Of a stretch of 64,000 nt of DNA, positions 31,862 through 55,866 are shown one piece after another (the first letter of the stretch is position 1; every line of letters starts with the position of its first letter). Under the pieces are notes generated by a model that saw only the letters and a list, made by a program, of their open reading frames with translations, was not told the DNA's origin and did no database searches. A program made the position numbers and the translations under genes. Origin of the DNA: Mucilaginibacter sp. OK283 (GTDB lineage Bacteria > Bacteroidota > Bacteroidia > Sphingobacteriales > Sphingobacteriaceae); assembly GCF_900110415.1 (NCBI RefSeq), contig NZ_FODR01000008.1:1-64000 (forward strand), read 5' to 3'.

Positions 31862-32326
31862 TTATTGTGCTTTTAGCCGTGGGTCGAAAGTAAATTTATT
31901 TACGCTGCGAATTTTTATTTTTTCAAAATCCGGGTGGGCCGGGTTAAGCAGGTAGTTATATTCCAGGTCGATAATTGCCGATGGCACTTTTAAAATCGCG
32001 GTTTCCATTTTATGCAGCCATTCATCGCCCAACTGTTGGGTAATGGGGTAATTAATCACCTTGGCCCATTGTTCGTTGAGTTTGGTAAGTTGGCTGATCG
32101 TTATTTCGGCGATGGGTAGTTTATCCGGAACCTCAATAATGATCACCGAAAAATTGCCGCTTTGTAACGACGTACCTACCGAATGGGCAAGTTTTTCTAA
32201 ACAGGAAAGCGCCAGGGAACCGCCGGTATAAATTACATACTGCCCCAACGAGTTCCATCGCCCGTCGATACCCGACCCTTTGCGGTCATAGGCATATTTG
32301 GTTTGGCTTATGCGGTAGGTGAGCAA
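31862..32326 (-). CDS. RES-domain toxin
   Basis: A 154-residue RES-family toxin. RES toxins degrade NAD+ and stop growth. Conserved features are YRISQTKYAYDRKGSG near the start, GRWNSLGQYVIYTGG with the family Arg, Trp and Tyr, and SLALSCLEKLAH with the conserved Glu. The start codon is TTG, which, together with a hairpin between it and the antitoxin gene, should keep toxin synthesis low. It is the second gene of the operon, after the Xre/MbcA/ParS antitoxin. Confidence 0.9.
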   Translation of the reverse strand: MLTYRISQTKYAYDRKGSGIDGRWNSLGQYVIYTGGSLALSCLEKLAHSVGTSLQSGNFSVIIIEVPDKLPIAEITISQLTKLNEQWAKVINYPITQQLGDEWLHKMETAILKVPSAIIDLEYNYLLNPAHPDFEKIKIRSVNKFTFDPRLKAQ

Positions 32327-32329
32327 GTT

Positions 32330-32450
32330 TTAATTATTGAATTATCGATTTATTGAATTGCTGAATTATTGATTTAGTCGAATTATCTAAATTGGGGCAA
32401 CCATGCACAATCAATAATTCAATAAATCGATAAATCAATAATTAATTAAG
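32330..32450 (-). repeat. Mirrored repeat between antitoxin and toxin genes
   Basis: The left arm, about 32330-32376, carries TTAATTATTGAATTATCGAT. The right arm, about 32410-32450, carries its near complement (ATCGATAAATCAATAATTAA) in the same words with small rearrangements. A core of about 35 nt includes GGGGCAACCATGCAC. In the operon mRNA this would fold into a long hairpin directly before the toxin start codon. Confidence 0.75.
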
Positions 32451-32949
32451 CAAGTACCCCATAATCAATGCGGATAAGCTGGGCTATTACAATATTGATG
32501 CCGGTGATGGTATCGAGCAAATCAAAGGGAATGGCATCAATGCCGGGGTTGTAATGCTTTAACCAGCTTTTAAATTCATCAAGCGTGCCAAAGGTATCAA
32601 GACCTTTATTAAAAAGTTCAAAAAGCTGGATGATGTGCTCACTCAGGCCCTGGTTTAAATCCCTTGCGCCCTGGATGTGTTTACGCAGGGTTGGCTCGGT
32701 GATATCAAGCCATTTGGCAACATCAATTTGCGTTGCGCCCGTAACACGAATTAAATCGGTGATGGCGGCAGATTGCAAACCGTGTTTTATAGCACCAAGC
32801 TTGGCCAGGGGCGATTTAAAATAAGTTTCGTAAGGCACAAACAAATCATGTAACATAAATGCCGATGCATCATGTTCAGGTATTACATACGGTTTTGAAG
32901 GCACCTGCCTGGCGTTTGTTGTGGTATACTGCCCTTTTACTGATTTCAT
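32446..32949 (-). CDS. Xre/MbcA/ParS-family antitoxin
   Basis: A 167-residue antitoxin of RES-Xre systems. The N-terminal half carries an Xre-like HTH (AAITDLIRVTGATQIDVAKW, then LDITEPTLRKHI). The C-terminal MbcA/ParS toxin-binding domain follows (LNQGLSEHIIQLFELFNKGL and LDTITGINIVIAQLIRIDYG). It neutralises the RES toxin and probably represses its own promoter. The ATG at 32949 is chosen over a TTG two codons upstream. A perfect palindrome lies 11 nt further upstream. Confidence 0.9.
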   Translation of the reverse strand: MKSVKGQYTTTNARQVPSKPYVIPEHDASAFMLHDLFVPYETYFKSPLAKLGAIKHGLQSAAITDLIRVTGATQIDVAKWLDITEPTLRKHIQGARDLNQGLSEHIIQLFELFNKGLDTFGTLDEFKSWLKHYNPGIDAIPFDLLDTITGINIVIAQLIRIDYGVLA

Positions 32950-32959
32950 ACACAAATGT

Positions 32960-33193: not shown

Positions 33194-33241
33194 TACATTT
33201 GATTCTACTTTATGCCAATCGGCATTTTAAACATAGCAATG
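33194..33241 (+). promoter_or_regulatory. Phage promoter and leader, copy 1
   Basis: TACATTTG (33194-33201) fits the Bacteroidota -7 box. Ten nt later comes the dyad ATGCCAATCGGCAT (33212-33225), then a stretch similar to that at 45338-45353. The 16-mer TATGCCAATCGGCATT occurs here and at 45323-45338. Confidence 0.6.
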
Positions 33242-33697
33242 AAAACTTCTTATAAATTCAAAAACGCCCAACAGTTGGGCGAGTTGATAGACGATTATTT
33301 TTTATATATTAAAGGAGAGTATGAATTAATGCAGCCAAAAGGACGCTCAGCAAAACCAATTCAGAAAATTTATAGCCGTGAACCAGAATTCCCTACCATT
33401 AGCAGCCTGGCTTTATTCCTTGGATTTGATAGTATGACAGATTTTAAGCAATATGAAGAGATGCGAAAATATTCAAGGCCTTTTAACCATGCCCGATTGC
33501 GTATTGAAGCGGCATACCAGCAATTACTTTTTGAAAAACCAACCGCTACCATATTCGCACTGAAAAGCATGGGCTGGAATGACAAGCCAGGAGCAACTAA
33601 AACATCAACCGAAACCCACAAAACCCTCAAAGTCGAGATGACCAGCACCGGCCCGAAACCTGCATCTACCGAAAAGGAAGTGGATGTTTTAATTTGA
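33239..33697 (+). CDS. Phage terminase small subunit-like protein
   Basis: A 152-residue protein in the place and size range of a small terminase subunit, which recognises DNA for packaging. It begins MKTSYKFKNAQQLGELIDDY and contains helices typical of TerS, with a C-terminal segment FALKSMGWNDKPGATKTST that resembles TerS/DNA-packaging proteins of Bacteroidota phages. An alternative ATG at 33212 would add MPIGILNIA; the identical leader at 45324 makes this uncertain. The large subunit follows after a repeat-filled gap. Confidence 0.75.
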   Translation: MKTSYKFKNAQQLGELIDDYFLYIKGEYELMQPKGRSAKPIQKIYSREPEFPTISSLALFLGFDSMTDFKQYEEMRKYSRPFNHARLRIEAAYQQLLFEKPTATIFALKSMGWNDKPGATKTSTETHKTLKVEMTSTGPKPASTEKEVDVLI

Positions 33698-33699
33698 GA

Positions 33700-33870
33700 A
33701 TCTTTCGAATTTGAAAATTTGAGAATTTGAAGATTTGATAATTAATCGCCATCCCTCCAATGCCCAATGGCAGCGCAGCGAAATGACCAATGACAGCAAA
33801 GCGAAATGACCAATGACAGCGAAGCGAATGACTAATGACAGCAAAGCGAAATGACCAATGACTAATGACC
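33700..33870. repeat. Tandem imperfect repeats (ATGACAGCGAAGCGAA family)
   Basis: First comes a stretch of TTTGAGAATTTGAA words (33700-33740). Then follow about four tandem copies of a unit near ATGACAGCAAAGCGAAATGA, running to about 33870. The same unit fills 38788-38935. The start codon of the large terminase gene lies inside the last copy. Confidence 0.85.
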
Positions 33871-35114
33871 AATTAACCAATGACCCCAAATTTGAAGTAT
33901 CTATCCTGTTTGGGCAAAATTTCAATACCGACGCCCATGTTGTGGTTAACCAGGGCGGCACAAGCTCGGGTAAAACCTACGCCATTGGGCAGGTGCTGTT
34001 TTGTATAGCTTGCCAGGCGCCAAAACAGGTTATAACCATAGTAGGCCAGGATATTCCCAACTTAAAAGCAGGCGTGCTGCGCGATGCGTTAAGTATTTAC
34101 AATAGCTCGGTTGTGTTACAAACAGCGGTAAAAAGCTATAATAAAAGCGACCGGATATTTGAGTTCCATAACGGCACTTTAATCGAATTTAAAAGCTATG
34201 CCGATCCGCAGGACGCAAAATCGGGCAAGCGCGATTACCTTTTTATAAATGAGGCCAATGGCATAAGCTACGCGGTTTATGCCGAGCTGGCCTTGCGCAC
34301 CCGCAAACGTATTTATATAGATTATAACCCCAACAGCACCTTTTGGGTACATGAACAGGTAATAGGCAGGCCGGGAGTGCAAACCATTATATCCGATCAC
34401 AGGCATAACCCCTTTTTGGATGATACTGTCAGGGCCAAAATAGAATCGTTAAAAACCGAGGATATCGAATTATGGAAAGTGTATGCCCGGGGCCTTACCG
34501 GTAAAATATCCGGGCTCATATTCCCCAACTGGTATGTTTGCGAACAAATTCCGCCCGAAGCCAGGTTAATTGCCACCGGCCTGGATTTTGGTTTTACCAA
34601 CGACCCAACCGCCTGCCTGCAGGTTTACCTGCAAAATGGCGAGCTATGGATACACGAATTGATATACCAAACCGGGCTCACCAATACCGATATAGCCACC
34701 AGGCTAAAAGCCGAAGGCCTGAGCCTTAAAACCGAGATTATTGCCGATAGCGCCGAGCCAAAATCGATAGAAGAATTTAAGCGCATGGGCTGGTACATCA
34801 CCGGGGCAAAAAAAGGCGCCGACAGTATCAATAATTCTATTGATATACTTAAACGGTATAAAATAAACGTAACCCGCGCCAGCGTCAACCTGCGTAAGGA
34901 GCTCGACCGCTATAAATGGCGTGTTGACCGCAGCGGCAAAACCATCAACGAAGCTGTAGATTCCTACAACCACTTGATAGATGCCCTAAGATATGTTGCT
35001 TTAAATAAACTGGCAATAAACAACCGGGACAGAAAATTAAGATCAAGGCTGCCATATAACCCTAAAACAACCAGCCGCAGCATGTTTGATGAACTAATTG
35101 GCTCACGTTTTTAA
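33858..35114 (+). CDS. Phage terminase large subunit
   Basis: A 418-residue packaging motor with ATPase and nuclease domains. Walker A is GGTSSGKT (residues 33-40); Walker B with the catalytic Glu is YLFINEANG. The nuclease domain has TGLDFGFTNDPTA, IADSAEPKSIEEF and a late NHLIDALRY with acidic metal ligands. It resembles the PBSX/Terminase_3 group. The N-terminal residues MTNDQLTND are encoded by the simple repeat upstream, so the native N-terminus may have been altered. It cuts concatemers and pumps DNA into proheads. Confidence 0.93.
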   Translation: MTNDQLTNDPKFEVSILFGQNFNTDAHVVVNQGGTSSGKTYAIGQVLFCIACQAPKQVITIVGQDIPNLKAGVLRDALSIYNSSVVLQTAVKSYNKSDRIFEFHNGTLIEFKSYADPQDAKSGKRDYLFINEANGISYAVYAELALRTRKRIYIDYNPNSTFWVHEQVIGRPGVQTIISDHRHNPFLDDTVRAKIESLKTEDIELWKVYARGLTGKISGLIFPNWYVCEQIPPEARLIATGLDFGFTNDPTACLQVYLQNGELWIHELIYQTGLTNTDIATRLKAEGLSLKTEIIADSAEPKSIEEFKRMGWYITGAKKGADSINNSIDILKRYKINVTRASVNLRKELDRYKWRVDRSGKTINEAVDSYNHLIDALRYVALNKLAINNRDRKLRSRLPYNPKTTSRSMFDELIGSRF

Positions 35115-35123
35115 CCGACCATT

Positions 35124-35221
35124 AAAACTCCCCCTTCAGGGGGCTGGGGGGCTAACCAATAACACTATCCCTGTAAATTAACCAATCAAAAACTCCCCCT
35201 TCAGGGGGCTGGGGGTTCATT
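35124..35221. repeat. Two copies of AAAACTCCCCCTTCAGGGGG
   Basis: A direct repeat with the core CTCCCCCTTCAGGGGGCTGG at about 35128 and 35194. Each copy can fold (CCCCC/GGGGG). Relatives of this core are at 50401 and 50466. The second copy ends only a few nt before the next start codon. Confidence 0.8.
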
Positions 35222-35929
35222 ATGATAGAAAAAACATTAAAAACAACTACGGGCAAACTGCCCATCAAAATCCCCACTCAATTAAGCGATGTTACGCTTG
35301 GGCAAATGATGGTCATGCAGGCCAAACCAAACTTAAATGATATTGAAGCCATCAGCATTTTATCGGGCATACCCGTCAGCGAGCTTCAGCAGGTAAAAGA
35401 TGCCAACGATTTTCTTGTTTTTGCCGATAGCGTACTGGCATTGGCTTACCAGATCAAATATCTGTACAACAGCGACGTGATACCCAAACAGATTAGCTTC
35501 CTGCTGCCCGGCGAAAACCGGCCAAAAACGGTAAAGGTGTTAGATAACCTATCGGTTGAGCCGGCAGGCGCTTTTATGGCCGCACGGGAAATTATTGCCG
35601 ATGAGGTAAACAACCACATTAAAAAATTTGGCGAAGAGGACTGGAAAGAAAACTTTAACCCATCATTAAACGCCTGTTGCCAGGTATTGGCCCACTATTT
35701 TTATTGCCGGGCAACAGGCAAACCCTATAACGAATACCAGGCCGAAGAATTTATCAACCATATAAAAAACATGCGGGTAACGGAGGCACTGCCCATATCC
35801 AAACATTTTTTTTACTGTTATCCCAGCTTATCGAAACCGAAAATAAGCTTCTGGCGTCGCCTGCAACAATTTTGGAAAAACGGGCTGGCATACAATCGTT
35901 CGAAAAATTTAAATATATCAACACCATAA
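35222..35929 (+). CDS. Phage protein, zero-frame product of a likely frameshift gene
   Basis: A 235-residue protein of unassigned family. The first ~195 residues look like a genuine soluble protein (LPIKIPTQLSDVTLGQMMVM, then FLLPGENRPKTVKV). From the T8 run at 35806-35813 the zero-frame sequence (YCYPSLSKPKISFWRRLQQF) looks unlike coding sequence, whereas the -1 frame looks like protein and continues to 36069. Length and behaviour recall tail-assembly chaperones that use -1 frameshifting (lambda G/GT type), but the position next to the terminase is unusual for those. Confidence 0.7.
   Translation: MIEKTLKTTTGKLPIKIPTQLSDVTLGQMMVMQAKPNLNDIEAISILSGIPVSELQQVKDANDFLVFADSVLALAYQIKYLYNSDVIPKQISFLLPGENRPKTVKVLDNLSVEPAGAFMAAREIIADEVNNHIKKFGEEDWKENFNPSLNACCQVLAHYFYCRATGKPYNEYQAEEFINHIKNMRVTEALPISKHFFYCYPSLSKPKISFWRRLQQFWKNGLAYNRSKNLNISTP
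35806..35849 (+). promoter_or_regulatory. Slippery heptamer plus downstream hairpin
   Basis: T-TTT-TTT (35806-35812) is in the correct phase for -1 slippage of the 35222 frame. Twelve nt later a 7-bp stem AGCTTAT/ATAAGCT (35825-35831 with 35843-35849) has an 11-nt loop. Both are hallmarks of programmed -1 frameshift sites. Confidence 0.6.
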
Positions 35930-36069
35930 ACGCCCTTGCCGATGGCGATATCACCAAATGGGATATCATTCTGAACATGCCCTACGAAAGGGTGCTCACC
36001 AAACTCCTGCTCAACAAAACCGAAGCAGAATATCAGAAAAGGTACGGGGAAATCAGTCGGGAGTCTTAA
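35812..36069 (+). CDS. Minus-one-frame extension of the 35222 gene
   Basis: An 85-residue segment in the -1 frame. It begins LLLSQLIETENKLLASP and ends LLLNKTEAEYQKRYGEISRE. It has only a weak internal TTG start at 35872 with no ribosome binding site. Fused to residues 1-197 of the 35222 product through slippage at the T-run it gives a 282-residue protein. If not programmed, the locus is a frameshifted pseudogene or carries a one-base homopolymer error. Confidence 0.65.
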   Translation, partial: LLLSQLIETENKLLASPATILEKRAGIQSFEKFKYINTINALADGDITKWDIILNMPYERVLTKLLLNKTEAEYQKRYGEISRES

Positions 36070-42147: not shown

Positions 42148-44589
42148 ATGCCAGAAAAAATAAACAAACAGCTCGTATCCGACATAAATACCAGCACCGA
42201 TCAACTTAAAAACCAGGTAATTGAAATAAATAAATCATTGGATGATTTATTAAAACGCCAGAAAGACCTGGTTACCGCAGGCGAAAAAAGCGGAAAGGCC
42301 TACCAGGATGTGGCGGTGCAAGTTCGGCTTGCAAAAGATTCCATTAAGGAGATTACCGCTCAAATTGATGAAAACATCAAATCGCTCAATTTGTCAAAAA
42401 ACTCATTGCAGCAAAACAAAGGCTTTCTGCAGGCGTTAATGGCGCAATATGACGAACTAAGTAAAAGCCAAGGCAATAATTCAAAAGAAGTTAAAGCTTT
42501 AAATGTCCAAATTGGCACACTTAGCAATACCATAGCCGATCAGGAAGAGAAAGTAGAGAAAAGCCGGAAAGTGTTTGATGTGCACAAAAGCACTAATGAA
42601 GCCCTGAAATCGTCGCTTGATAAGCTAAAAGAGTCGAATAAAGAGTTTGGCCCTACGATAGAAGAAGTATCAAAAGGATTTAATGCCATGAAAACCGGAC
42701 TATCGGCTGTAAAAACCGGATTTCAAAGCGTTGGCGGAGCTATTAAAACTACTGGTTTTGGATTGTTGGTGCTGGTTCTTCAATCGTTGGTTGAATACTT
42801 CACAAAAAATGCCAAAGGTATAAAGCAATTAAAGGGATTCATGGCCGCTATCGGCCTTGTTGTAGAAAAAGTAAAGAAAGGTTTTCAAAGTTTAGGAGAA
42901 TTTATAGTCAATGCGGTAACCCACCCTGTTGATAGTATAAAGAACCTCGCAAACATAATCAAGGAAAATATTATAAACCGGTTTAAATCATTCTCGGTAA
43001 TACTTGATGGTATTATGCATCTGGATTTTAAAAAGGTAGCAGACGGGGTATTACAGAGTTTCACAGGCGTTACCCATGCAACTGACAAAATTAAAGTTGC
43101 GTTTGACGCTACAAAAAAAGCCGCTGTAGATGCAGGTAACGAAATAGTCAACACTTATAAAGAAGCGCAAAAGGAAACAAAAAAAACAGAGGCCGCTAAG
43201 GGAACCTTACATAAAAACGATCAAACGCGGCATCGGGAAAAAATGCAAATGCACAAAGAGGAAGCAGATGCAAGCAAACAGGAGTTAACCCCAAAAACGA
43301 ATACAGATACCAACGAAAAAACCTACCAGGATTCCCTCATCAAACAAATACAAGCCACCGCCAATGGCTTAGCCAAAAAGGCTGAACTGCAACACAATAG
43401 TTATACCGAAGAACAGGCAACTTTAAAACGTTTGTATGATAGCAAACTCATCAACCAGGAACAATACCAACAGGAAAGTACTCAACTGGAAGAAAAATAT
43501 CACGTTGGCATTGGCGAAATCATCAAACGTATGAATGCCGAAGACCTGGAAAAAGTTAAAAAACAGCAAAAAGAACTTGTAGAAGCCCAACAACAAAAAG
43601 AGCTTATTAGTAAAGACCAACACGATGTTGACAAAGCCATTCTGCCCTGGAACAAATTGGAAGCCGAAAAAAAACTGATAACAGACAAATACAACTTCGA
43701 GATACAAAAGGCAGCTGAAGCAGGTAAGGATACCGCCGCCCTAAGGCTCGAGTACCAGGAAAAAATTACCGAAGCAACCAAAAAATCAGAAGAACAGCGT
43801 AAGGCATTTGCCATTCAGGCCGCCCAACAAGTTTCAAGCGCGGCCTTCTCCCTCATCAGCAACAGCATCAAATCATCCAGCGAAGCCAAAATACAGGCAT
43901 TAGAAAGTGATAAGGCCAAAGAGCTAAGCAACACCAACCTCACCAAAAGCCAGAAAGCAGCCATCGAGGCCAAATACAAGAAAAAGGAAAACGACGAAAA
44001 AGTAAGAGCCTTTAAAGCCGAGCAAAAAATGCAAATAGCCCAGGCGGTTATTAACGGGGCCATCGCCGTTACAAAAACGTTGTCGACCATGGCCCTGCCG
44101 GCTGCCATTCCGTTTATAGCGGCAGATGTAGCCATGACGGCCATGCAAATAGCAACCATAGCATCGCAAAAGCCGCCAAAATTTGCACGGGGTGGCCAGT
44201 TTATTTCTGATGGCCGTGGCGCATTATTACCCGGTTACAGCCGAACAGATAATACCAACGCTTATCTGCGCTCGGGCGAAGCGGTTGTAGTATCCGAAGC
44301 CATGCGCAATCCCTGGGCCCGCAACCTGGTAAGCGCCATCAACGTGGCCCATGGCGGCCGTGATTTCTCGGCACCAAACCCGGGCAATGGTTACGCCATC
44401 GGCGGCATATTTACCGACGGTGGCAACGCCAACCGCTACTATAACCAACCGGTTAATGATGTAAAAGAACTTGCCAACACGGTAGCCTACCAAATGATCA
44501 ACAACTTCCCCCCTATTTATGTGGACGTAAAAGACGTTAACAACCAGCAAAATATACTGGCACAAACGGTGGATAGGGTGAATCTTTAA
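42148..44589 (+). CDS. Phage tail tape measure protein
   Basis: An 813-residue protein with long heptad-rich helices (residues 1-180 and 430-560, rich in Lys, Glu and Gln), a hydrophobic stretch around 200-215 (TGFGLLVLVLQSLVEYF) and the C-terminal hydrophobic segment IPFIAADVAMTAMQIATIAS. A glycine-rich tail follows (FARGGQFISDGRGALLPGY). The C-terminal block is characteristic of tape measure proteins in Bacteroidota siphophages. Length sets tail length, so a long flexible tail is expected. Confidence 0.9.
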   Translation: MPEKINKQLVSDINTSTDQLKNQVIEINKSLDDLLKRQKDLVTAGEKSGKAYQDVAVQVRLAKDSIKEITAQIDENIKSLNLSKNSLQQNKGFLQALMAQYDELSKSQGNNSKEVKALNVQIGTLSNTIADQEEKVEKSRKVFDVHKSTNEALKSSLDKLKESNKEFGPTIEEVSKGFNAMKTGLSAVKTGFQSVGGAIKTTGFGLLVLVLQSLVEYFTKNAKGIKQLKGFMAAIGLVVEKVKKGFQSLGEFIVNAVTHPVDSIKNLANIIKENIINRFKSFSVILDGIMHLDFKKVADGVLQSFTGVTHATDKIKVAFDATKKAAVDAGNEIVNTYKEAQKETKKTEAAKGTLHKNDQTRHREKMQMHKEEADASKQELTPKTNTDTNEKTYQDSLIKQIQATANGLAKKAELQHNSYTEEQATLKRLYDSKLINQEQYQQESTQLEEKYHVGIGEIIKRMNAEDLEKVKKQQKELVEAQQQKELISKDQHDVDKAILPWNKLEAEKKLITDKYNFEIQKAAEAGKDTAALRLEYQEKITEATKKSEEQRKAFAIQAAQQVSSAAFSLISNSIKSSSEAKIQALESDKAKELSNTNLTKSQKAAIEAKYKKKENDEKVRAFKAEQKMQIAQAVINGAIAVTKTLSTMALPAAIPFIAADVAMTAMQIATIASQKPPKFARGGQFISDGRGALLPGYSRTDNTNAYLRSGEAVVVSEAMRNPWARNLVSAINVAHGGRDFSAPNPGNGYAIGGIFTDGGNANRYYNQPVNDVKELANTVAYQMINNFPPIYVDVKDVNNQQNILAQTVDRVNL

Positions 44590-45353: not shown

Positions 45354-45449
45354 AATAATCGAATTCAGGCTGATCTGAGCCAAACAAAACTTCCGGACTT
45401 TCCGACTTACCGGACTTCCGGACAAAAATCCCAAATCTCAAAAAGATGA
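45324..45449 (+). CDS. Possible 41-residue leader ORF
   Basis: A frame beginning MPIGINNISNNNRIQADLSQ whose TGA overlaps the protease ATG (ATGA). The first five residues equal the alternative N-terminus of the small terminase gene (MPIGI). It may only reflect the shared leader DNA. Translational coupling is possible. Confidence 0.3.
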   Translation: MPIGINNISNNNRIQADLSQTKLPDFPTYRTSGQKSQISKR

Positions 45450-46642
45450 GTTACAAAATTTACTTATACGATACCGAAACCGACTGCATCGGGTCGGGCA
45501 GTTTATCATCGGCATACATACAAACGCAGTTGCAGGAAGCCGCCGGGCAAGACCTGGAGGTGCACATCAGCTCGGTAGGCGGCAGCGCGTTTGATGCCAT
45601 TGCCATATATGATCTGCTTAAAAAATATCCGGGCAATGTAACTACCTACATTGATGCCCTGGCCGCCTCGGCGGCCTCTATAGTAGCTATGGGTGGCAAA
45701 ACCATAGTGATGAGCAAATATGCGCTGCTCATGATCCACAAACCAATGGTTGGCAGCGGCGGCAATGCCGATGAGCTTTTAAAAGATGTGCAGATGTTGA
45801 ATGTAGTACAATCGCGCCTGGCGCAAATCTACATGGACAAGTCCGGGTTGGACGGAGTAACAGTAAACAGTTTAATAAACTCCGTCACCTGGATGACTGC
45901 CGACCAGGCCCTTGACATGGGCTTTATTGACCAGGTGGAGGATTATAGCCCTGATATTACCAACAGCGCCCTCATCAAAAAATACACTACCACAGCCCCA
46001 GCGGTTTACCAGCGATGCATTAACAAAATCTTAAACAATAAAAACAATATGAACATCGAAAACAAAGAACTTATCGAGAAAACCACGTCGGTTTTGGATA
46101 AGATTATGAACTTTTTCAAAAAAGTGGTAAACAAGCAAACCATTACCGACAAAGGCACGCTGCACCACGCCGGCGAACTGGCCGAAGGTGCCGAAGTGTA
46201 CAACGACGAAGACATGAGCACCCCGGCGGCTACAGACACCTACACCACCGCCGACGGTAAAAAGATTGACGTTAAAGAAGGCCAGGTGCAAAAAGTAGCC
46301 CCCGCGCCCGAAGCCGACCCCGAGGCCGAAGATGAGGACGACGATGTACCAACAAGCAAACTTAACCCGGCAAAAAAAGCTACCGAAATTCAAAACCGCC
46401 TGCAGCAACTAAAAGCCAGGTTACATGCCCAAAACGCGCTGTTAACCGAAGCCCGCACAGCCCTTGAAGAAGCAAGCAACCGCCTGCAAAAAACCCGCAC
46501 CGAAGTTAAAAACGAAATAAAATCAACCTACAGCCCCGAAGGCTCCAAACGCAGCAACAAAGCAAAAACCGAAACCACACCCTTCTTCGCCCCGCAAAGC
46601 GAATTAGCTAAAAATGCGGTGAAAAGGGCGGTAGCGAAATAG
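45446..46642 (+). CDS. ClpP-like prohead protease with fused scaffold-like tail
   Basis: A 398-residue protein. Residues 1-190 form a ClpP/S14-like serine protease: nucleophile Ser75 in DALAASAAS, His98 in LLMIHKPM, and a later Asp. Residues 200-398 are acidic and helical with a coiled coil (IQNRLQQLKARLHAQN, then LLTEARTALEEA). This is the arrangement of phage maturation proteases fused to a scaffolding domain. An in-frame ATG at 46049 could produce the scaffold alone. The capsid gene follows after a mirrored repeat. Confidence 0.87.
   Translation: MSYKIYLYDTETDCIGSGSLSSAYIQTQLQEAAGQDLEVHISSVGGSAFDAIAIYDLLKKYPGNVTTYIDALAASAASIVAMGGKTIVMSKYALLMIHKPMVGSGGNADELLKDVQMLNVVQSRLAQIYMDKSGLDGVTVNSLINSVTWMTADQALDMGFIDQVEDYSPDITNSALIKKYTTTAPAVYQRCINKILNNKNNMNIENKELIEKTTSVLDKIMNFFKKVVNKQTITDKGTLHHAGELAEGAEVYNDEDMSTPAATDTYTTADGKKIDVKEGQVQKVAPAPEADPEAEDEDDDVPTSKLNPAKKATEIQNRLQQLKARLHAQNALLTEARTALEEASNRLQKTRTEVKNEIKSTYSPEGSKRSNKAKTETTPFFAPQSELAKNAVKRAVAK
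46049..46642 (+). CDS. Possible nested scaffolding protein
   Basis: The in-frame ATG at 46049 (MNIENKELIEKTTSVLDKI) lies exactly at the junction between protease and helical tail, and would give a 197-residue protein made only of the scaffold-like part. Lambda C/Nu3 uses this nested design. Internal initiation here is an inference. Confidence 0.4.
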   Translation: MNIENKELIEKTTSVLDKIMNFFKKVVNKQTITDKGTLHHAGELAEGAEVYNDEDMSTPAATDTYTTADGKKIDVKEGQVQKVAPAPEADPEAEDEDDDVPTSKLNPAKKATEIQNRLQQLKARLHAQNALLTEARTALEEASNRLQKTRTEVKNEIKSTYSPEGSKRSNKAKTETTPFFAPQSELAKNAVKRAVAK

Positions 46643-46735: not shown

Positions 46736-47944
46736 ATGGCTCAATTTACATTCACCAACAACACCTATGCCGGCGAAGCGCTGGCCGGGTTCATGGCAAG
46801 CACGCTGCTGGAAGCCGATTCAGTAAAGCGTGGACTGCTCACCGTTATTAACGACGTTAAAGCCCGCAAAATTATCCTTGATGTTGACGACGAAGTGGTA
46901 CTGCAAGACCCATCGGGCATTTTCCACGACCAGGGTACCACCACCATGCAAACCGAAAGCTACCTTGACCCCGTAGTTTACGAATTTATGAAACAGGAAC
47001 AATGGGACAAACTGGCCCAAAGCTGGGAAGCCCAATCCCTTAAACCCGGCGCCTTTATGGATTACGAAGGCATTGTAGACTTATCCGACTTTATGGTGCA
47101 GCGCTACTTAACCAAAATACAGGTAGCCAACGAGCGACTGTACTGGTTAGGTAAAGGATCAACTAAAGAAGCCACCTTTAGCGCCCCATTTGCCGGCTTA
47201 CTGCCAACCATTGCAGCGGCATCGGGCGTGTACAAAGTAGGCCTGGGTAAACCAACAACATCTATGAGTGCTACAGCCATCAGCGCTTTAGGCGTGGTTA
47301 CCGTGGCCGATACATCAACCTTAGCCGATGGCGATGTAGTAACCGTTACCCAGGTTACCGGTACCAGCAAGGATACCACCAACGGCGCGCCGGGTATCGA
47401 TTTAACCGGCCAGTCGTACTTTATCCAGGTGTTAACGCCTACCACGTTTAGGCTGGTGCGCAACTACAACGAGGTTAACAGCCGCAAACCGGCAACATTC
47501 CTGAATACCTCATCTGCGGCAACCATCAGCTACATTAACGTAAGCAACGTATTGCAGGTTTTGGGCAGCGTTTACGCCCAGCTTGATCCTGCCGACCGGA
47601 TCCAGGAAGATTTTAACCTGCAGATTCCTTTACACGTAGGTTATGCCTATGCGCAGGCACAGGCCAACAAAGCGCTGAACGTTATCAACGCCTTTACGGA
47701 TATGAAGAAAATGGATTACCTGGGTATTCCGTTGCAGATCATGAACCACTGGCAGGCTAATACTATACTGGGTGCCCGTTCATCAAACCTGTTTTTAGGG
47801 GTCGATTTACTGGGCGATGCTTCCGAACTTTCAACAGTTTACATGAAGCCCTATACCAATGATAACGTAGTACGCATGAAAGCCCGCATGAAAGCAGCCG
47901 TAAACTTCAAATTTGCCAACGAGCTGTTTTACTTAAGCGCTTAA
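46736..47944 (+). CDS. Major capsid protein
   Basis: A 402-residue protein beginning MAQFTFTNNTYAGEALAGFM. It is predicted to be the head shell subunit from its size, its place directly after the maturation protease, and HK97-like features. These are a long helix region (MKQEQWDKLAQSWEAQSL), a variable inserted domain (residues about 165-260, Thr/Ser-rich, beta, including TLADGDVVTVTQVTGTS) and a C-terminal P-domain-like stretch. The insertion may decorate the capsid surface. Confidence 0.8.
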   Translation: MAQFTFTNNTYAGEALAGFMASTLLEADSVKRGLLTVINDVKARKIILDVDDEVVLQDPSGIFHDQGTTTMQTESYLDPVVYEFMKQEQWDKLAQSWEAQSLKPGAFMDYEGIVDLSDFMVQRYLTKIQVANERLYWLGKGSTKEATFSAPFAGLLPTIAAASGVYKVGLGKPTTSMSATAISALGVVTVADTSTLADGDVVTVTQVTGTSKDTTNGAPGIDLTGQSYFIQVLTPTTFRLVRNYNEVNSRKPATFLNTSSAATISYINVSNVLQVLGSVYAQLDPADRIQEDFNLQIPLHVGYAYAQAQANKALNVINAFTDMKKMDYLGIPLQIMNHWQANTILGARSSNLFLGVDLLGDASELSTVYMKPYTNDNVVRMKARMKAAVNFKFANELFYLSA

Positions 47945-48842: not shown

Positions 48843-50126
48843 ATGAAAACTTACTTACCGCAAATTGAGCGAAGAATATTGGTAAGGCCCAACCAAACCT
48901 ACGGGATATTAAATTACGACCTGGATAACGCTTACCCGCAGCGGATGCTGGAACTGGTTGCCGGATCGCCAACGGCTAAAGATTGCTGGAACAAAAGGAC
49001 CAAATTTATAGGCGGTAATGGGTTTGAAGCCACTGGTTTAGGCAAGCAGATCATCAATCCCAAAGGATTGACCCTGGCTAAGCTTTTGAAAGCGTTGGCA
49101 ACAGATAAGGCGCTTTTTACCGGCTTCGGCATTCATGCAAATTACAATGCCAACTTTAAAATAGCTTCGGTTAATTACATTAAGTTCGAAGACATCCGCA
49201 TGGGCGATACCGATTGCCCCGAAACGGCCAACAAGTTTGCCATTTATAACGATTGGGGCCGCAAAACCTGGAAAAACATCATGCGCAGCAAGGTTATATT
49301 CTTAGATAAATATGACCCCGACCCCGCGGTTGTGCAGCAACAGGTTGACGATGCCGGCGGGTGGGATAAATACAAAGGGCAGCTGCTTTATTTTAATCCC
49401 GAGATTGATGATTATCCCCTGATAGAAGCAGATTCTGTTTGGGAGGATTTTGAAACCGAAGCAGGCATTAAGATTTTTAACAACCGGGAGGTTACCACGG
49501 GCTTTTTGCCGTCAACCATGTTGTTCATGAAATCGCGCCGCGAAGAGGCCGATAACAGCAGACCTAATGCAGATGAATTTGCAGGAATAAATACCCCATC
49601 GCAGTTGGAGCAGGATTTAGGTGCTTTCCAGGGAACGAAAAGCGCTCAAAAAATCATTGTTATAGAATATGAGGATGAAAACTCAAAACCGGAGTTTAAG
49701 GCCTATCCTATCCAGAATAACGATAAGCTTTTTGAAACAACCGAACGATCTGTTGAAGCCCGCATCATCAAAGGATTTTCAGTACCCAAGGAACTGGTTA
49801 ATCCCGACAAATCATCTGGCTTAAGCAACGGCGGCGAAAAGAAACAGGCCATCATCGAATTTAACGATAATACCGCGCCCGACAGGCTGGAGCTTGCTGA
49901 AACCCTTGCCGAAGTATTCAGTCATTTTTATACCAATATCAATCCGGCCGGTAATTGGGCTATTACACCAGTGCCTGCCATAGCCGCCGATGATAGCCCT
50001 GGGATTAAAGCGGGTAATGCTATCAACGATCTGCTTGCATCTGCCATCCCGTTGCAAAATAAAATTGCTGCCCTGGTTTATGCCTATGGCTTTAAACAAG
50101 CCGAAGCGGAGGCTATGTGTAAATAG
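48843..50126 (+). CDS. Phage portal protein
   Basis: A 427-residue protein predicted to form the dodecameric ring at the capsid vertex through which DNA is packaged. Supporting features are the N-terminal region with NQTYGILNYDLDNAYPQRML, a beta-rich middle (NYNANFKIASVNYIKFEDIRM), a helical stem region (ETTERSVEARIIKGFSVPKE) and the SGLSNGGEKKQAIIEFND segment common to portals. The Asp-rich DDSPGIKAGN near the C-terminus follows. It lies downstream of the capsid gene, the reverse of the usual order. Confidence 0.8.
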   Translation: MKTYLPQIERRILVRPNQTYGILNYDLDNAYPQRMLELVAGSPTAKDCWNKRTKFIGGNGFEATGLGKQIINPKGLTLAKLLKALATDKALFTGFGIHANYNANFKIASVNYIKFEDIRMGDTDCPETANKFAIYNDWGRKTWKNIMRSKVIFLDKYDPDPAVVQQQVDDAGGWDKYKGQLLYFNPEIDDYPLIEADSVWEDFETEAGIKIFNNREVTTGFLPSTMLFMKSRREEADNSRPNADEFAGINTPSQLEQDLGAFQGTKSAQKIIVIEYEDENSKPEFKAYPIQNNDKLFETTERSVEARIIKGFSVPKELVNPDKSSGLSNGGEKKQAIIEFNDNTAPDRLELAETLAEVFSHFYTNINPAGNWAITPVPAIAADDSPGIKAGNAINDLLASAIPLQNKIAALVYAYGFKQAEAEAMCK

Positions 50127-54230: not shown

Positions 54231-54464
54231 ATGAAAAAGAAATATTCGTTCTGGGAGCGTATCACCAGTGATACGCCCTCATTTTTTAAAAAAGTTCAAA
54301 TTTTAGGCGCGGGCCTTGTGGCTATTTCGGTTTCACTCACCGGAGTTGGCATCATTCCGGTTGCCGTTACAGGCATAATAGCTGCTGTGGGCACAACTAT
54401 GGGGGCAATTGCCCAGCTTGCAGTAAAACAATCCGAACCCGATACTACAGCTTCGGAAAAATAA
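54231..54464 (+). CDS. Holin-like small membrane protein
   Basis: A 77-residue protein with two hydrophobic segments (about residues 23-45 and 47-66) between a basic N-terminus (MKKKYSFWERITSDTPSFF) and a charged C-terminus. Small two-helix proteins of this kind beginning KYSFWER occur at the end of Bacteroidota phage structural modules and are taken as holins. No endolysin is adjacent, so the lytic partner is missing or located elsewhere. Confidence 0.6.
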   Translation: MKKKYSFWERITSDTPSFFKKVQILGAGLVAISVSLTGVGIIPVAVTGIIAAVGTTMGAIAQLAVKQSEPDTTASEK

Positions 54465-54479
54465 TTAATTCAACCAGTT

Positions 54480-54740
54480 ATGACAACACTCGATCAACGT
54501 GAAATCAGGGGGATCACCCTCAAAAACATCACCGTTACTATTATCAGCACGATAAGTATAGTTGTTTCTGTGATGACAACTTACTTCCAGTTAAAAGGCG
54601 ATATCCGGGATGTGCGGTCAACACAGGAAACTCAAAACCGGGTTAATGAAATACGCCTTAAAGTTCTTGAGGGCGAAGTGGCTATCCTGCAGCAGGAAGT
54701 TCGGGAACTAAAAGACAGCAAAATTCGCAAAGGTGCTTAG
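54480..54740 (+). CDS. Small membrane protein with coiled coil
   Basis: An 86-residue protein with one hydrophobic segment (about residues 16-37, NITVTIISTISIVVSVMTTY) and a C-terminal heptad helix (RVNEIRLKVLEGEVAILQQE, then VRELKDS). The start lies 15 nt after the holin-like gene, so they form a pair. It could be a second holin, a spanin-like or an antiholin-like protein. Function inferred only from position and shape. Confidence 0.55.
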   Translation: MTTLDQREIRGITLKNITVTIISTISIVVSVMTTYFQLKGDIRDVRSTQETQNRVNEIRLKVLEGEVAILQQEVRELKDSKIRKGA

Positions 54741-54753
54741 CTGAGCTGCCTGC

Positions 54754-55866
54754 TTAGTTTTCTAAAATGCGCACCAGGTCATCGTTAACATAAAACGTTT
54801 CTCTACCATCTTTAATCTGGCTCAAAACTTTTGCATCAACCAATTCACCAAAATATTTGGTAAGTGTTGTTCTGGACGTGATGCCTAAACGATCGCCAAT
54901 TAGTTGGGGCTTGATGTATGGCTGACTAAAAATCAATTCGTTTACCTCCTTGCTATACCATTTAATTTTACCTTTAGCGTGGATAAGCGTCGCTTCCATT
55001 TGGGCAATAATGTTATTAATAAGCTGGCTTGTTAAATGGGATGTGTTTTCGACGGCATCAAGCATGTATAATATCCAGGGCTTCCATGATCCCCGTTGCG
55101 TAACAATTCCCAGATTGTAATAATAATCTTCCTTGTTTACAATGATGTATTTTGACAGATAGAGTACCGGCTGGCTCAGCAATCCTGCGTGCACCAGGTA
55201 CAACAGGTTTAATATTCTGCCGGTGCGGCCATTTCCGTCAGAAAAGGGGTGTATCGCTTCAAACTGGTAATGAGAAAAACACATTTTAAGCAACGGGTCG
55301 GTTGGGTATTGCTTATCATCGTTTAAATATTCCAATAAGTTATCCATCAGTTTTTCTATTAATCCGAGGCCTCTTGGGGGAGTGTATATCACTTCCCCTG
55401 CCCTGAATTCACTCTGCCCGCGCTGGATTACCGTTAATGATGCAGGCGACCGCAAACCGGCCGATAACTGTTTAATTTGCCTGAATACGCCGGTTATGCT
55501 TTTTAAATCAATCTGATTTTTCTCTTTTATTAGCCTGTAGCCTTCCCATAACGCTTCACGGTAGCGCAAAACTTCTTTGGTAGCTATATTGGCCCTGTCT
55601 TCCTGCACGGTATCCGAAACTGCTTTGTACAATTCATCTTCTGTTGTAAAAATATTTTCAATCGCGGTAGATGCCTGGGCTTCCTGCAACGCTATAGTGT
55701 TTACCAGCATTAAAGGATTAGGCAATCGCAAAATACCAACATTTACAGCTGCCAGCGCCCTTGATGCGGTTACCAGCTTCTTTAAAATATCTATATCATT
55801 CTCAATAACCGGATCCGGTGGGAGTAATGGTAAATCGTTAAATGGTTTGGTCCTGTCGTATGGCAT
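54754..55866 (-). CDS. Fic-family protein, class II with inhibitory helix and winged-helix tail
   Basis: A 370-residue Fic protein. The N-terminal domain carries the class II self-inhibitory motif STAIEN ([S/T]xxxE[G/N], residues 66-71), which blocks the active site until released. The Fic core is HPFSDGNGRTGR with catalytic His206 and the acidic Asp intact. The C-terminal about 70 residues form a winged-helix-like module (LGITSRTTLTKYFGELVDAK). The normal reaction is AMP transfer from ATP to a target Ser, Thr or Tyr. The target is unknown. It lies convergent with the phage cluster by 13 nt and is preceded by three palindromes. Confidence 0.92.
   Translation of the reverse strand: MPYDRTKPFNDLPLLPPDPVIENDIDILKKLVTASRALAAVNVGILRLPNPLMLVNTIALQEAQASTAIENIFTTEDELYKAVSDTVQEDRANIATKEVLRYREALWEGYRLIKEKNQIDLKSITGVFRQIKQLSAGLRSPASLTVIQRGQSEFRAGEVIYTPPRGLGLIEKLMDNLLEYLNDDKQYPTDPLLKMCFSHYQFEAIHPFSDGNGRTGRILNLLYLVHAGLLSQPVLYLSKYIIVNKEDYYYNLGIVTQRGSWKPWILYMLDAVENTSHLTSQLINNIIAQMEATLIHAKGKIKWYSKEVNELIFSQPYIKPQLIGDRLGITSRTTLTKYFGELVDAKVLSQIKDGRETFYVNDDLVRILEN

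Follow-up and report, generated by a model that had tools for sequence, protein, structure and literature searches.

Comparative evidence for programmed -1 frameshifting at a T run in a gene of a Mucilaginibacter phage-derived module

Comparison with homologues strongly supports programmed -1 frameshifting in a gene next to the terminase of a phage-derived module in Mucilaginibacter sp. OK283, as had been proposed in a preliminary description made from the sequence alone, and recoding as such at the gene's run of eight Ts is close to certain. The gene lies in the 64,000-nucleotide stretch analyzed here (the window; positions 1 to 64,000 of the forward strand of contig NZ_FODR01000008.1, assembly GCF_900110415.1). 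The comparison points to a conserved site followed by a conserved domain in the -1 frame, selection acting in that frame, a zero-frame tail that is kept open, and an upstream element at a fixed distance. Our explanation as a whole, to which we give a probability of about 0.75, is that two proteins would be made by a -1 slip, with the assistance of the upstream element, and would form a tail-chaperone pair.

Most ribosomes would read the zero frame through to position 35929 and produce a short form of 235 residues. A fraction, holding UUU codons in both the P and the A site, would slip back one base on U_UUU_UUU and continue in the -1 frame to 36069, giving a long form of 282 residues in which the 38-residue tail of the short form is exchanged for an 85-residue C-terminal domain. 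The upstream element, by Shine-Dalgarno (SD)-like pairing or as a small hairpin, may raise the rate of slipping, and the two forms may together serve the downstream-encoded tape measure protein as tail-assembly chaperones, in the manner of lambda gpG/gpGT. The ribosome is likely the slipping machine at the T8 site of the window; the tail-chaperone role, for which we argue from layout and position and not from homology, is probable.

Programmed frameshifting in tail genes is known, and what sets this case apart is an unrecognized family with unusual control signals. The literature searched, which included few subscription journals, has no description of this family, of a T-run tail frameshift in Bacteroidota, or of a Bacteroidota gene transfer agent (GTA). 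The same three are likewise undescribed in the available portions of PMC3711429, PMC5009743, PMC12946183, PMC12074574, PMC10885494, PMC9662315, and PMC8776804, among which PMC12074574 mentions prophages in Mucilaginibacter, without such details.

Two reading frames meet at a T run

The zero-frame open reading frame (ORF), the T run, and the open -1 frame reported in the preliminary description were all confirmed in the sequence. The zero frame (35222 to 35929, + strand) encodes a short product of 235 amino acids, consisting of a conserved N part (residues 1 to 196) and a tail that lies past the slip site. Structure modeling of the N part gave a good model (pLDDT 88.8), and that of the C-terminal domain (C-domain) a poor one (pLDDT 56). 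The T8 run occupies 35806 to 35813 (+ strand) and contains the slippery heptamer T_TTT_TTT at 35806 to 35812; zero-frame codons start at 35807 and 35810, which puts the heptamer in phase for a -1 slip, in agreement with the earlier claim. The -1 frame is open from 35806 to its stop at 36069 (+ strand), encodes the C-domain of the long product, and has no ATG before 35977. Recomputed from both frames, the fusion has 197 + 85 codons and hence the predicted 282 residues, and its junction in the window spans KHFFLLLSQLIE. The zero-frame tail that is specific to the short product (35813 to 35929, + strand) overlaps the -1 frame, so that this segment would be dual coding; in the window the tail includes FWRRLQQF.

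Runs of seven or more Ts are not rare in themselves. The module genes carry four of them on the + strand, including that of the frameshift gene, and by the phases listed, three of the four (35806, 39267, and 53447) hold T_TTT_TTT in phase. It is conservation, and not the rarity of such runs, that places the site beyond chance.

The run and the -1 domain are conserved among homologues

A search with the N part in 301 family genomes, 60 of which had a match, together with one viral scan (20 loci), provided 81 loci including the window; a fragmentary match in G062 (residues 1 to 67, three stops) was dropped from this set. At the end of the N part, 77 of the 81 loci have a run of seven to ten Ts (47 T7, 8 T8, 19 T9, and 3 T10). 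Its first T is in phase 2 in all but one of these loci (76); in the exception, L105, it is in phase 0, and a correctly phased T_TTT_TTT is retained. The same C-domain follows in the -1 frame in 76 of the 77, the exception, L085, being truncated, so that comparing the run and both frames in homologues, as had been proposed, finds the run with its -1 domain in 76 of 81 loci. The four loci that lack a run are three deletions (L059, L074, and L084) and a divergent paralogue without the C-domain (L106). Homologues with both parts in one continuous frame, which the preliminary description had named as the sign of an indel in the window, number 0 of 81. Named relatives of the gene are from Mucilaginibacter.

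A search that starts with the C-domain is free of the bias towards the run that comes with using the N part. All of the 80 viral loci obtained in this way (the best 80 of 98) have a T7 to T9 run with the longest upstream frame one base out, although in L308 that frame is just 192 nt long; 73 of these best 80 of 98 are distinct around the site. A third set, whose titles name Mucilaginibacter, uncultured Mucilaginibacter, Bacteroidetes bacterium and, for L258, Methylococcaceae, has the T run in 61 of 69 loci among the matches listed, 60 of the 61 with the C-domain; L258 (92 C-domain residues) was counted as intact and L245 as truncated. Its eight exceptions are six loci with the deletion described below (L191, L196, L207, L216, L217, and L238), a locus with the same left end (L221), and a contig end (L255). 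The sets of 81, 69, and 80 loci share genomes and contigs, so their counts cannot be treated as independent.

A set of 63 unique close homologues, which omits L085, nine divergent loci (L070, L102 to L105, and L107 to L110), and four duplicates, was used for finer comparison. T-TTT-TTT stands at the site in all 63, against 17.7 expected from codon usage in a count that ignores shared ancestry. Elsewhere in the module genes, Phe-Phe is written as T-TTT-TTT in 64 of 306 instances.

The paralogue L106 (G300 C1:1341738-1342295) is a second, divergent copy, from a genome of the same species, that has the N part and a zero-frame tail, with neither the C-domain nor a T7 run. It sits near homologues of two other tail-region proteins.

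Selection acts on the -1 frame and on the tail of the short product

The preliminary description had judged that the -1 frame looks like protein, and its pN/pS in the overlap (0.28 to 0.31, versus 0.90 for the zero frame) bears this out as purifying selection. Past the zero-frame stop the ratio is 0.19, and in the N part it is 0.36. Synonymous variation is low around the run, over a stretch that starts some 11 codons upstream of it and ends some 9 codons downstream. In a scan of ten genes (14 to 72 sequences each), the lowest synonymous windows of the two parts were 0.39 for the N part (chapN) and 0.42 for the C part (chapC); the window at the start of the major capsid protein (MCP) gene (0.29) and that at the end of g50504, where the next gene starts (0.18), were lower, and one protease window was equal (0.42).

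Zero-frame residues 3 to 20 from the run contain a stop in 0 of 63 sequences, where a null model that redraws the synonymous codons of the -1 frame gives 56.7 ± 2.1. The same test in the +1 frame, which gave 19 sequences with a stop against 41.2 expected, gauges what shared ancestry alone contributes. For zero-frame residues 20 to 38, conservation is 0.369 versus 0.368 for the +1 frame, and there are 9 stops against 38.3 in the null. By eye, the common tail of the short product is approximately YPNLSKPKTGFWHRL, and L106 also retains YPDL...GFW. The distant members L107 and L070 have short tails, which makes a constrained tail a property of the family at genus level. Judging from these alignments, the short product has its own tail, evidently kept open under constraint.

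The likely signal lies upstream of the run

The 7-bp stem that the preliminary description had included in the frameshift signal is present at 35825 to 35849 on the + strand (arms AGCTTAT, 35825 to 35831, and ATAAGCT, 35843 to 35849; 11 nt past the last T), and we judge it to be there by chance. We rejected it as a signal because it is poorly kept, with all seven pairs in 7 of 63 unique close homologues, and because the predicted folding of the 80 nt that follow the run does not surpass that of shuffled sequence (z = -0.23; 74 of 200 shuffles equal it or are more stable). For a downstream stem or pseudoknot, RNAalifold found no consensus among the 63 sequences (energy 0.0), and Rfam had no match within 33000 to 56000. 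A scan for pairs found 23 stems of at least 4 bp at 80%, versus 5.0 ± 3.1 for shuffled columns; we did not accept this excess as structure, since among the 20 stems listed, which show no covariation, most join the T run to A-rich segments or to GGAGG.

The most notable stem of that scan, GGGTA/TGCCC, is upstream of the run. It would form a 5-bp hairpin in the block GGGTAACGGAGGCACTGCCC (35775 to 35794, + strand), a region of low synonymous variation, with GGAGG in the loop; all five pairs are possible in 46 of 50 T7-8 sequences, and covariation is absent. Across homologues the conserved upstream block reads GGGTAACGGAGGCNCTGCCC. The codon-variation scan also picked out a conserved stretch 3' of the run with low synonymous variation, about TTATCCCARCTTATCGAA (35815 to 35835, + strand). 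The conserved signals thus appear to be the upstream block and the first ~25 nt after the run, not the downstream stem.

The SD-like GGAGG (35782 to 35786, + strand) lies 19 nt before the T run. Of 77 loci, 56 have it at exactly this distance, and in the 45 nt examined it never occurs at another spacing. Its presence follows the length of the run: in the 63-sequence set it accompanies 50 of 50 T7-8 runs and 1 of 13 T9 runs; over all 77 loci, 55 of 55 T7-8 and 1 of 22 T9-10; and in 70 distinct C-domain loci, 58 of 59 T7-8 and 1 of 11 T9, the last count having taken 74 of the 80 loci (best 80 of 98) and overlapping the other sets. When the tree is computed without the residues that surround the site, five changes of run length and four of GGAGG are needed. 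Independent pairs on well-supported branches gave two changes in the same direction, none in the opposite direction, and one of run length alone (median p 0.5), too few pairs for significance, so that the association is striking yet rests on few events. Its simplest reading is that slippage at a minimal T7-8 site depends on help that a long run can do without.

Bacteroidia ribosomes are reported to be blind to SD sequences though they carry the anti-SD (PMC9976891, in the part available), which makes an SD mechanism for GGAGG doubtful. The search for the host 16S-end (anti-SD) pattern found none in the window's own genome (G000) with a strict pattern, none in G000 or G300 with a looser one, and unconvincing matches in three other genomes. 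The dnaX site of Escherichia coli combines an upstream SD-like element with a hairpin. The window gene shares with it a short heptamer and the SD-like element, and differs in the distance of 19 nt, in host ribosomes reported to be SD-blind, and in a downstream hairpin that is not conserved. The dnaX heptamer is A_AAA_AAG, and U_UUU_UUU is reported to be weaker than A_AAA_AAG in E. coli (PMC5009743, in part). The pairing of run length with the upstream element is a natural experiment on minimal U7 shifting, and it bears on whether an SD-like element can act in Bacteroidota at all.

Instead of the ribosome, RNA polymerase might slip on the T run, yielding transcripts with one extra U that are read normally into the -1 frame. 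Transcription slippage on nine As or Ts is established in bacteria (PMC5009743, in part), and 19 of 77 loci have T9 and 3 of 77 have T10, 21 of these 22 without the upstream element. Runs of nine being where bacterial RNA polymerase slips, the T9-10 members may use this route. As an account of the site in the window it is unlikely, however: 47 of the 77 runs are exactly T7 and 8 are T8, matching the heptamer in length, and they keep to a single phase; an upstream element at a fixed distance in the T7-8 members is not what polymerase slippage would lead one to expect. Ribosomal slippage remains our reading for the T8 run.

Gene order suggests a tail-chaperone pair

The frameshift gene belongs to a phage-derived module of ~21 kb (33212 to ~54740) with head, tail, and packaging genes, of which those listed next are on the + strand. 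It begins with the small terminase subunit (33212 to 33697; phrog_606, E 4.3e-14) and the large terminase subunit, TerL (33858 to 35114; Pfam Terminase_3C, E 4.7e-19, and phrog_2). Four genes after the frameshift gene is that of the tape measure protein (42148 to 44589; phrog_1533 and other tape-measure PHROGs, best E 6.3e-8), followed by a ClpP-type head maturation protease (45446 to 46642), the probable MCP (46736 to 47944; assigned by position, its sole match being phrog_11320, which has no function), and the portal protein (48843 to 50126; phrog_11226, E 2.6e-73).

The preliminary description had placed the gene next to the terminase instead of before the tape measure gene. It does adjoin the terminase, and it is also upstream of the tape measure gene, with four genes between. 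The likeness to lambda G/GT that it had seen stands for the two-frame layout; the chaperone role is our conclusion from that layout and from position, with no homology match. Two traits of G/GT are present, an overlapping frame that on comparative grounds is reached by frameshifting and a phased XXXYYYZ heptamer, and the order with the tape measure gene downstream is largely kept across intact loci. Tail-chaperone genes usually lie directly before the tape measure gene, a trait that the window gene lacks.

Like lambda gpG/gpGT and other tail-assembly frameshift genes, the window gene would slip by -1 near the end of the first frame on an XXXYYYZ heptamer, and as in lambda it lies upstream of the tape measure gene, on the same strand, in a tailed-phage module. 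It differs from gpG/gpGT in having no detected relation in sequence or fold and in lying four genes before the tape measure gene; its site is T_TTT_TTT, with a conserved upstream element and no conserved downstream structure, and its short form has a constrained tail of its own. Chaperone frameshifting is known for lambda gpG/gpGT, and in an HK97-like cluster it has been measured at 6 and 7% (PMC5009743 and PMC3711429, each in part).

Searches with the protein identified no known tail chaperone in Pfam, PHROGs, or the PDB, a lack of matches that is compatible with such a fold. No Pfam family matches either part, and the weakly matching PHROGs are without function. For the fold of the N part, the best PDB match had E 0.21 and the best VIA match Z 2.9, and a profile search of the PDB gave 0 matches at E up to 1.

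The lack of a match to known chaperones would also fit a protein that is recoded as we propose and serves in two forms as a head-tail or packaging factor. In the window, as in most of the loci compared, TerL comes before the gene, and it does so immediately in the phages P12024S and BS-TP3 described below. Yet the genes that come after the frameshift gene lead to the tape measure, and tail chaperones are typically recognized by this combination, two products made through a -1 slip from a gene that precedes the tape measure gene (PMC5009743, in part). We regard a packaging or head-tail role as improbable, and a chaperone pair as the better account of this layout.

The -1 domain appears to be part of a fusion protein

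It is most improbable that the C-domain is instead a separate gene, expressed by re-initiation or from an internal start codon. The -1 frame contains a TTG at 35872, and TTG or ATG stands at the corresponding offset in many homologues, but a start near the run is not shared: L085 has none, and the first is at +246 in L066 and +249 in L089. Moreover, both the conserved C-domain and the selection on it begin at the run itself. Sequencing error, an indel, or a pseudogene, for which nothing speaks except the frame change itself and the example of real decay in L085 (its C-domain is truncated, and its genome, G204, gave no TerL match), is excluded by the homologues, which have the same layout in 76 of 81 loci and 80 of 80 (best 80 of 98), in isolates and metagenomes alike.

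Distant relatives bear on the fusion as well. In BFVD the N part has 11 matches at E up to 0.001, all to uncharacterized or unnamed phage proteins. One of them, I6R9M9 of Nonlabens phage P12024S (E 7.1e-5, probability 1.00, TM 0.53/0.58), corresponds by its length of 175 residues to P12024S_38. Like the window gene, P12024S_38 has a similar predicted fold and directly follows TerL, and its DNA carries a T9 run together with an open -1 frame that extends through P12024S_39, which gives us an isolated phage with the same layout. Unlike the window gene, it is annotated as two hypothetical proteins, and its C part looks different by eye. P12024S_38 and P12024S_39 look like one T9 frameshift gene (L260, 23136 to 23830), which the annotation in the P12024S record would have split in two. 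Phage 6H (KC959568) has a weak BFVD match (E 0.01) and, by eye, a T6 run near the end with a further open frame; it was not counted.

More distant Bacteroides phages have a gene after TerL, as in the window, that is one continuous frame, unlike the window gene. They are represented by gp55 of Bacteroides phage BS-TP3, which directly follows TerL, and by an ORF of MT836763, a faecal contig; in L262 there is no run of at least six Ts after TerL. One stretch of the MT836763 ORF aligns with residues 16 to 91 of the N part (hhalign E 5.9e-6, probability 85) and another with residues 13 to 81 of the C part (E 2.5e-6, probability 89), each a single comparison of moderate strength; by the aligned ranges, the second half of the N part is missing. 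These comparisons agree with gene position and with matches to phrog_28240, which both continuous ORFs match (E 4.6e-24 and 1.6e-30), as do 5 of 39 C-domain homologues (best E 0.0023). A tblastn search of the phage collection gave no match to the N part of the window gene or of L110. The distant Bacteroides phages thus appear to hold parts related to both frames within one ORF. The natural occurrence of such a single-frame version supports the fusion as a genuine protein, and it indicates that parts of the wider family do without the frameshift.

The module reads as mainly vertically inherited

TerL is present in 128 of 149 Mucilaginibacter genomes, with 103 of 130 matches near full length. 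At the left flank, two clusters of host proteins occur in 34 and 26 of 71 loci, which places many copies of the module at one chromosomal location. Distances for six module proteins correlate with those for RpoB in 25 to 30 genomes (r 0.46 to 0.85; 0 of 499 permutations each), and nearest neighbors agree with RpoB in 14 of 30 cases for TerL, 15 of 30 for chapN, and 0 of 25 for the MCP, many of whose rows are locus-end fragments. The module reads as mainly the product of vertical descent with some exchange.

No integrase or other integration or replication genes were found among the module and neighboring proteins scanned. A GTA is characterized by vertical inheritance, by the lack of integration and replication genes, and by packaging and delivering host DNA and not all of its own genes (PMC9662315, in part); the term "bacteroid" is absent from the available text of that paper, which deals with GTA classification. 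On gene content and descent the module is possibly a GTA or a domesticated prophage, and as such a testable candidate GTA in a common soil genus.

A broader joint reading is conceivable, though we hold it to be doubtful. The family would have switched between T7-8 ribosomal slippage that needs the GGAGG hairpin at 19 nt, in hosts reported to be SD-blind, and T9-10 slippage, perhaps by RNA polymerase, that needs no helper; and the vertically inherited, genus-wide module would be the first Bacteroidota GTA in the literature surveyed.

Several further features lie in or beside the module. A RES/Xre-MbcA toxin-antitoxin pair (31862 to 32955, - strand) lies to its left and a Fic-domain protein (54754 to 55866, - strand) to its right. 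Two small proteins at its right end (54231 to 54464 and 54480 to 54740) are by eye holin-like and coiled-coil. Between TerL and the frameshift gene, 35126 to 35217 holds two copies of a CTCCCCCTTCAGGGGGCTGGGG-like repeat, and similar repeats are found beside the gene elsewhere.

Deletions recur at shared junctions

TerL is cut short at about residue 107 in 16 genomes; in 15 of these the break falls on one and the same Asn-Gly-Ser/Thr codon or no more than about six bases past it. By eye, the cut joins capsid codon 88 in three, the end of the tape measure gene in four, and the coiled-coil gene or other places in the rest. A second junction recurs in 6 of 149 genomes: chaperone codon 193, which is 6 nt ahead of the T run, is fused to the coiled-coil gene, identically in five of them and with a single mismatch in the sixth. 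The deletion loci with shared left ends comprise L141 to L156, L059, L074, L084, L121 to L123, L216, and L221.

The deleted forms are scattered among intact relatives on a FastTree phylogeny of the small terminase subunit and TerL, which carries no support values, and both flanks of L074 resemble the same intact relative, which argues against the transfer of one deleted allele. Clear shared microhomology is absent from the junctions. The upstream block was considered as a recombination site and rejected: it occurs once in each of eight genomes, and the hot spot at TerL codon 107 is without synonymous constraint, so that such a block is not a general mark of deletion. Three of the truncated-TerL cases are in single-contig genomes (G370, G325, and G189).
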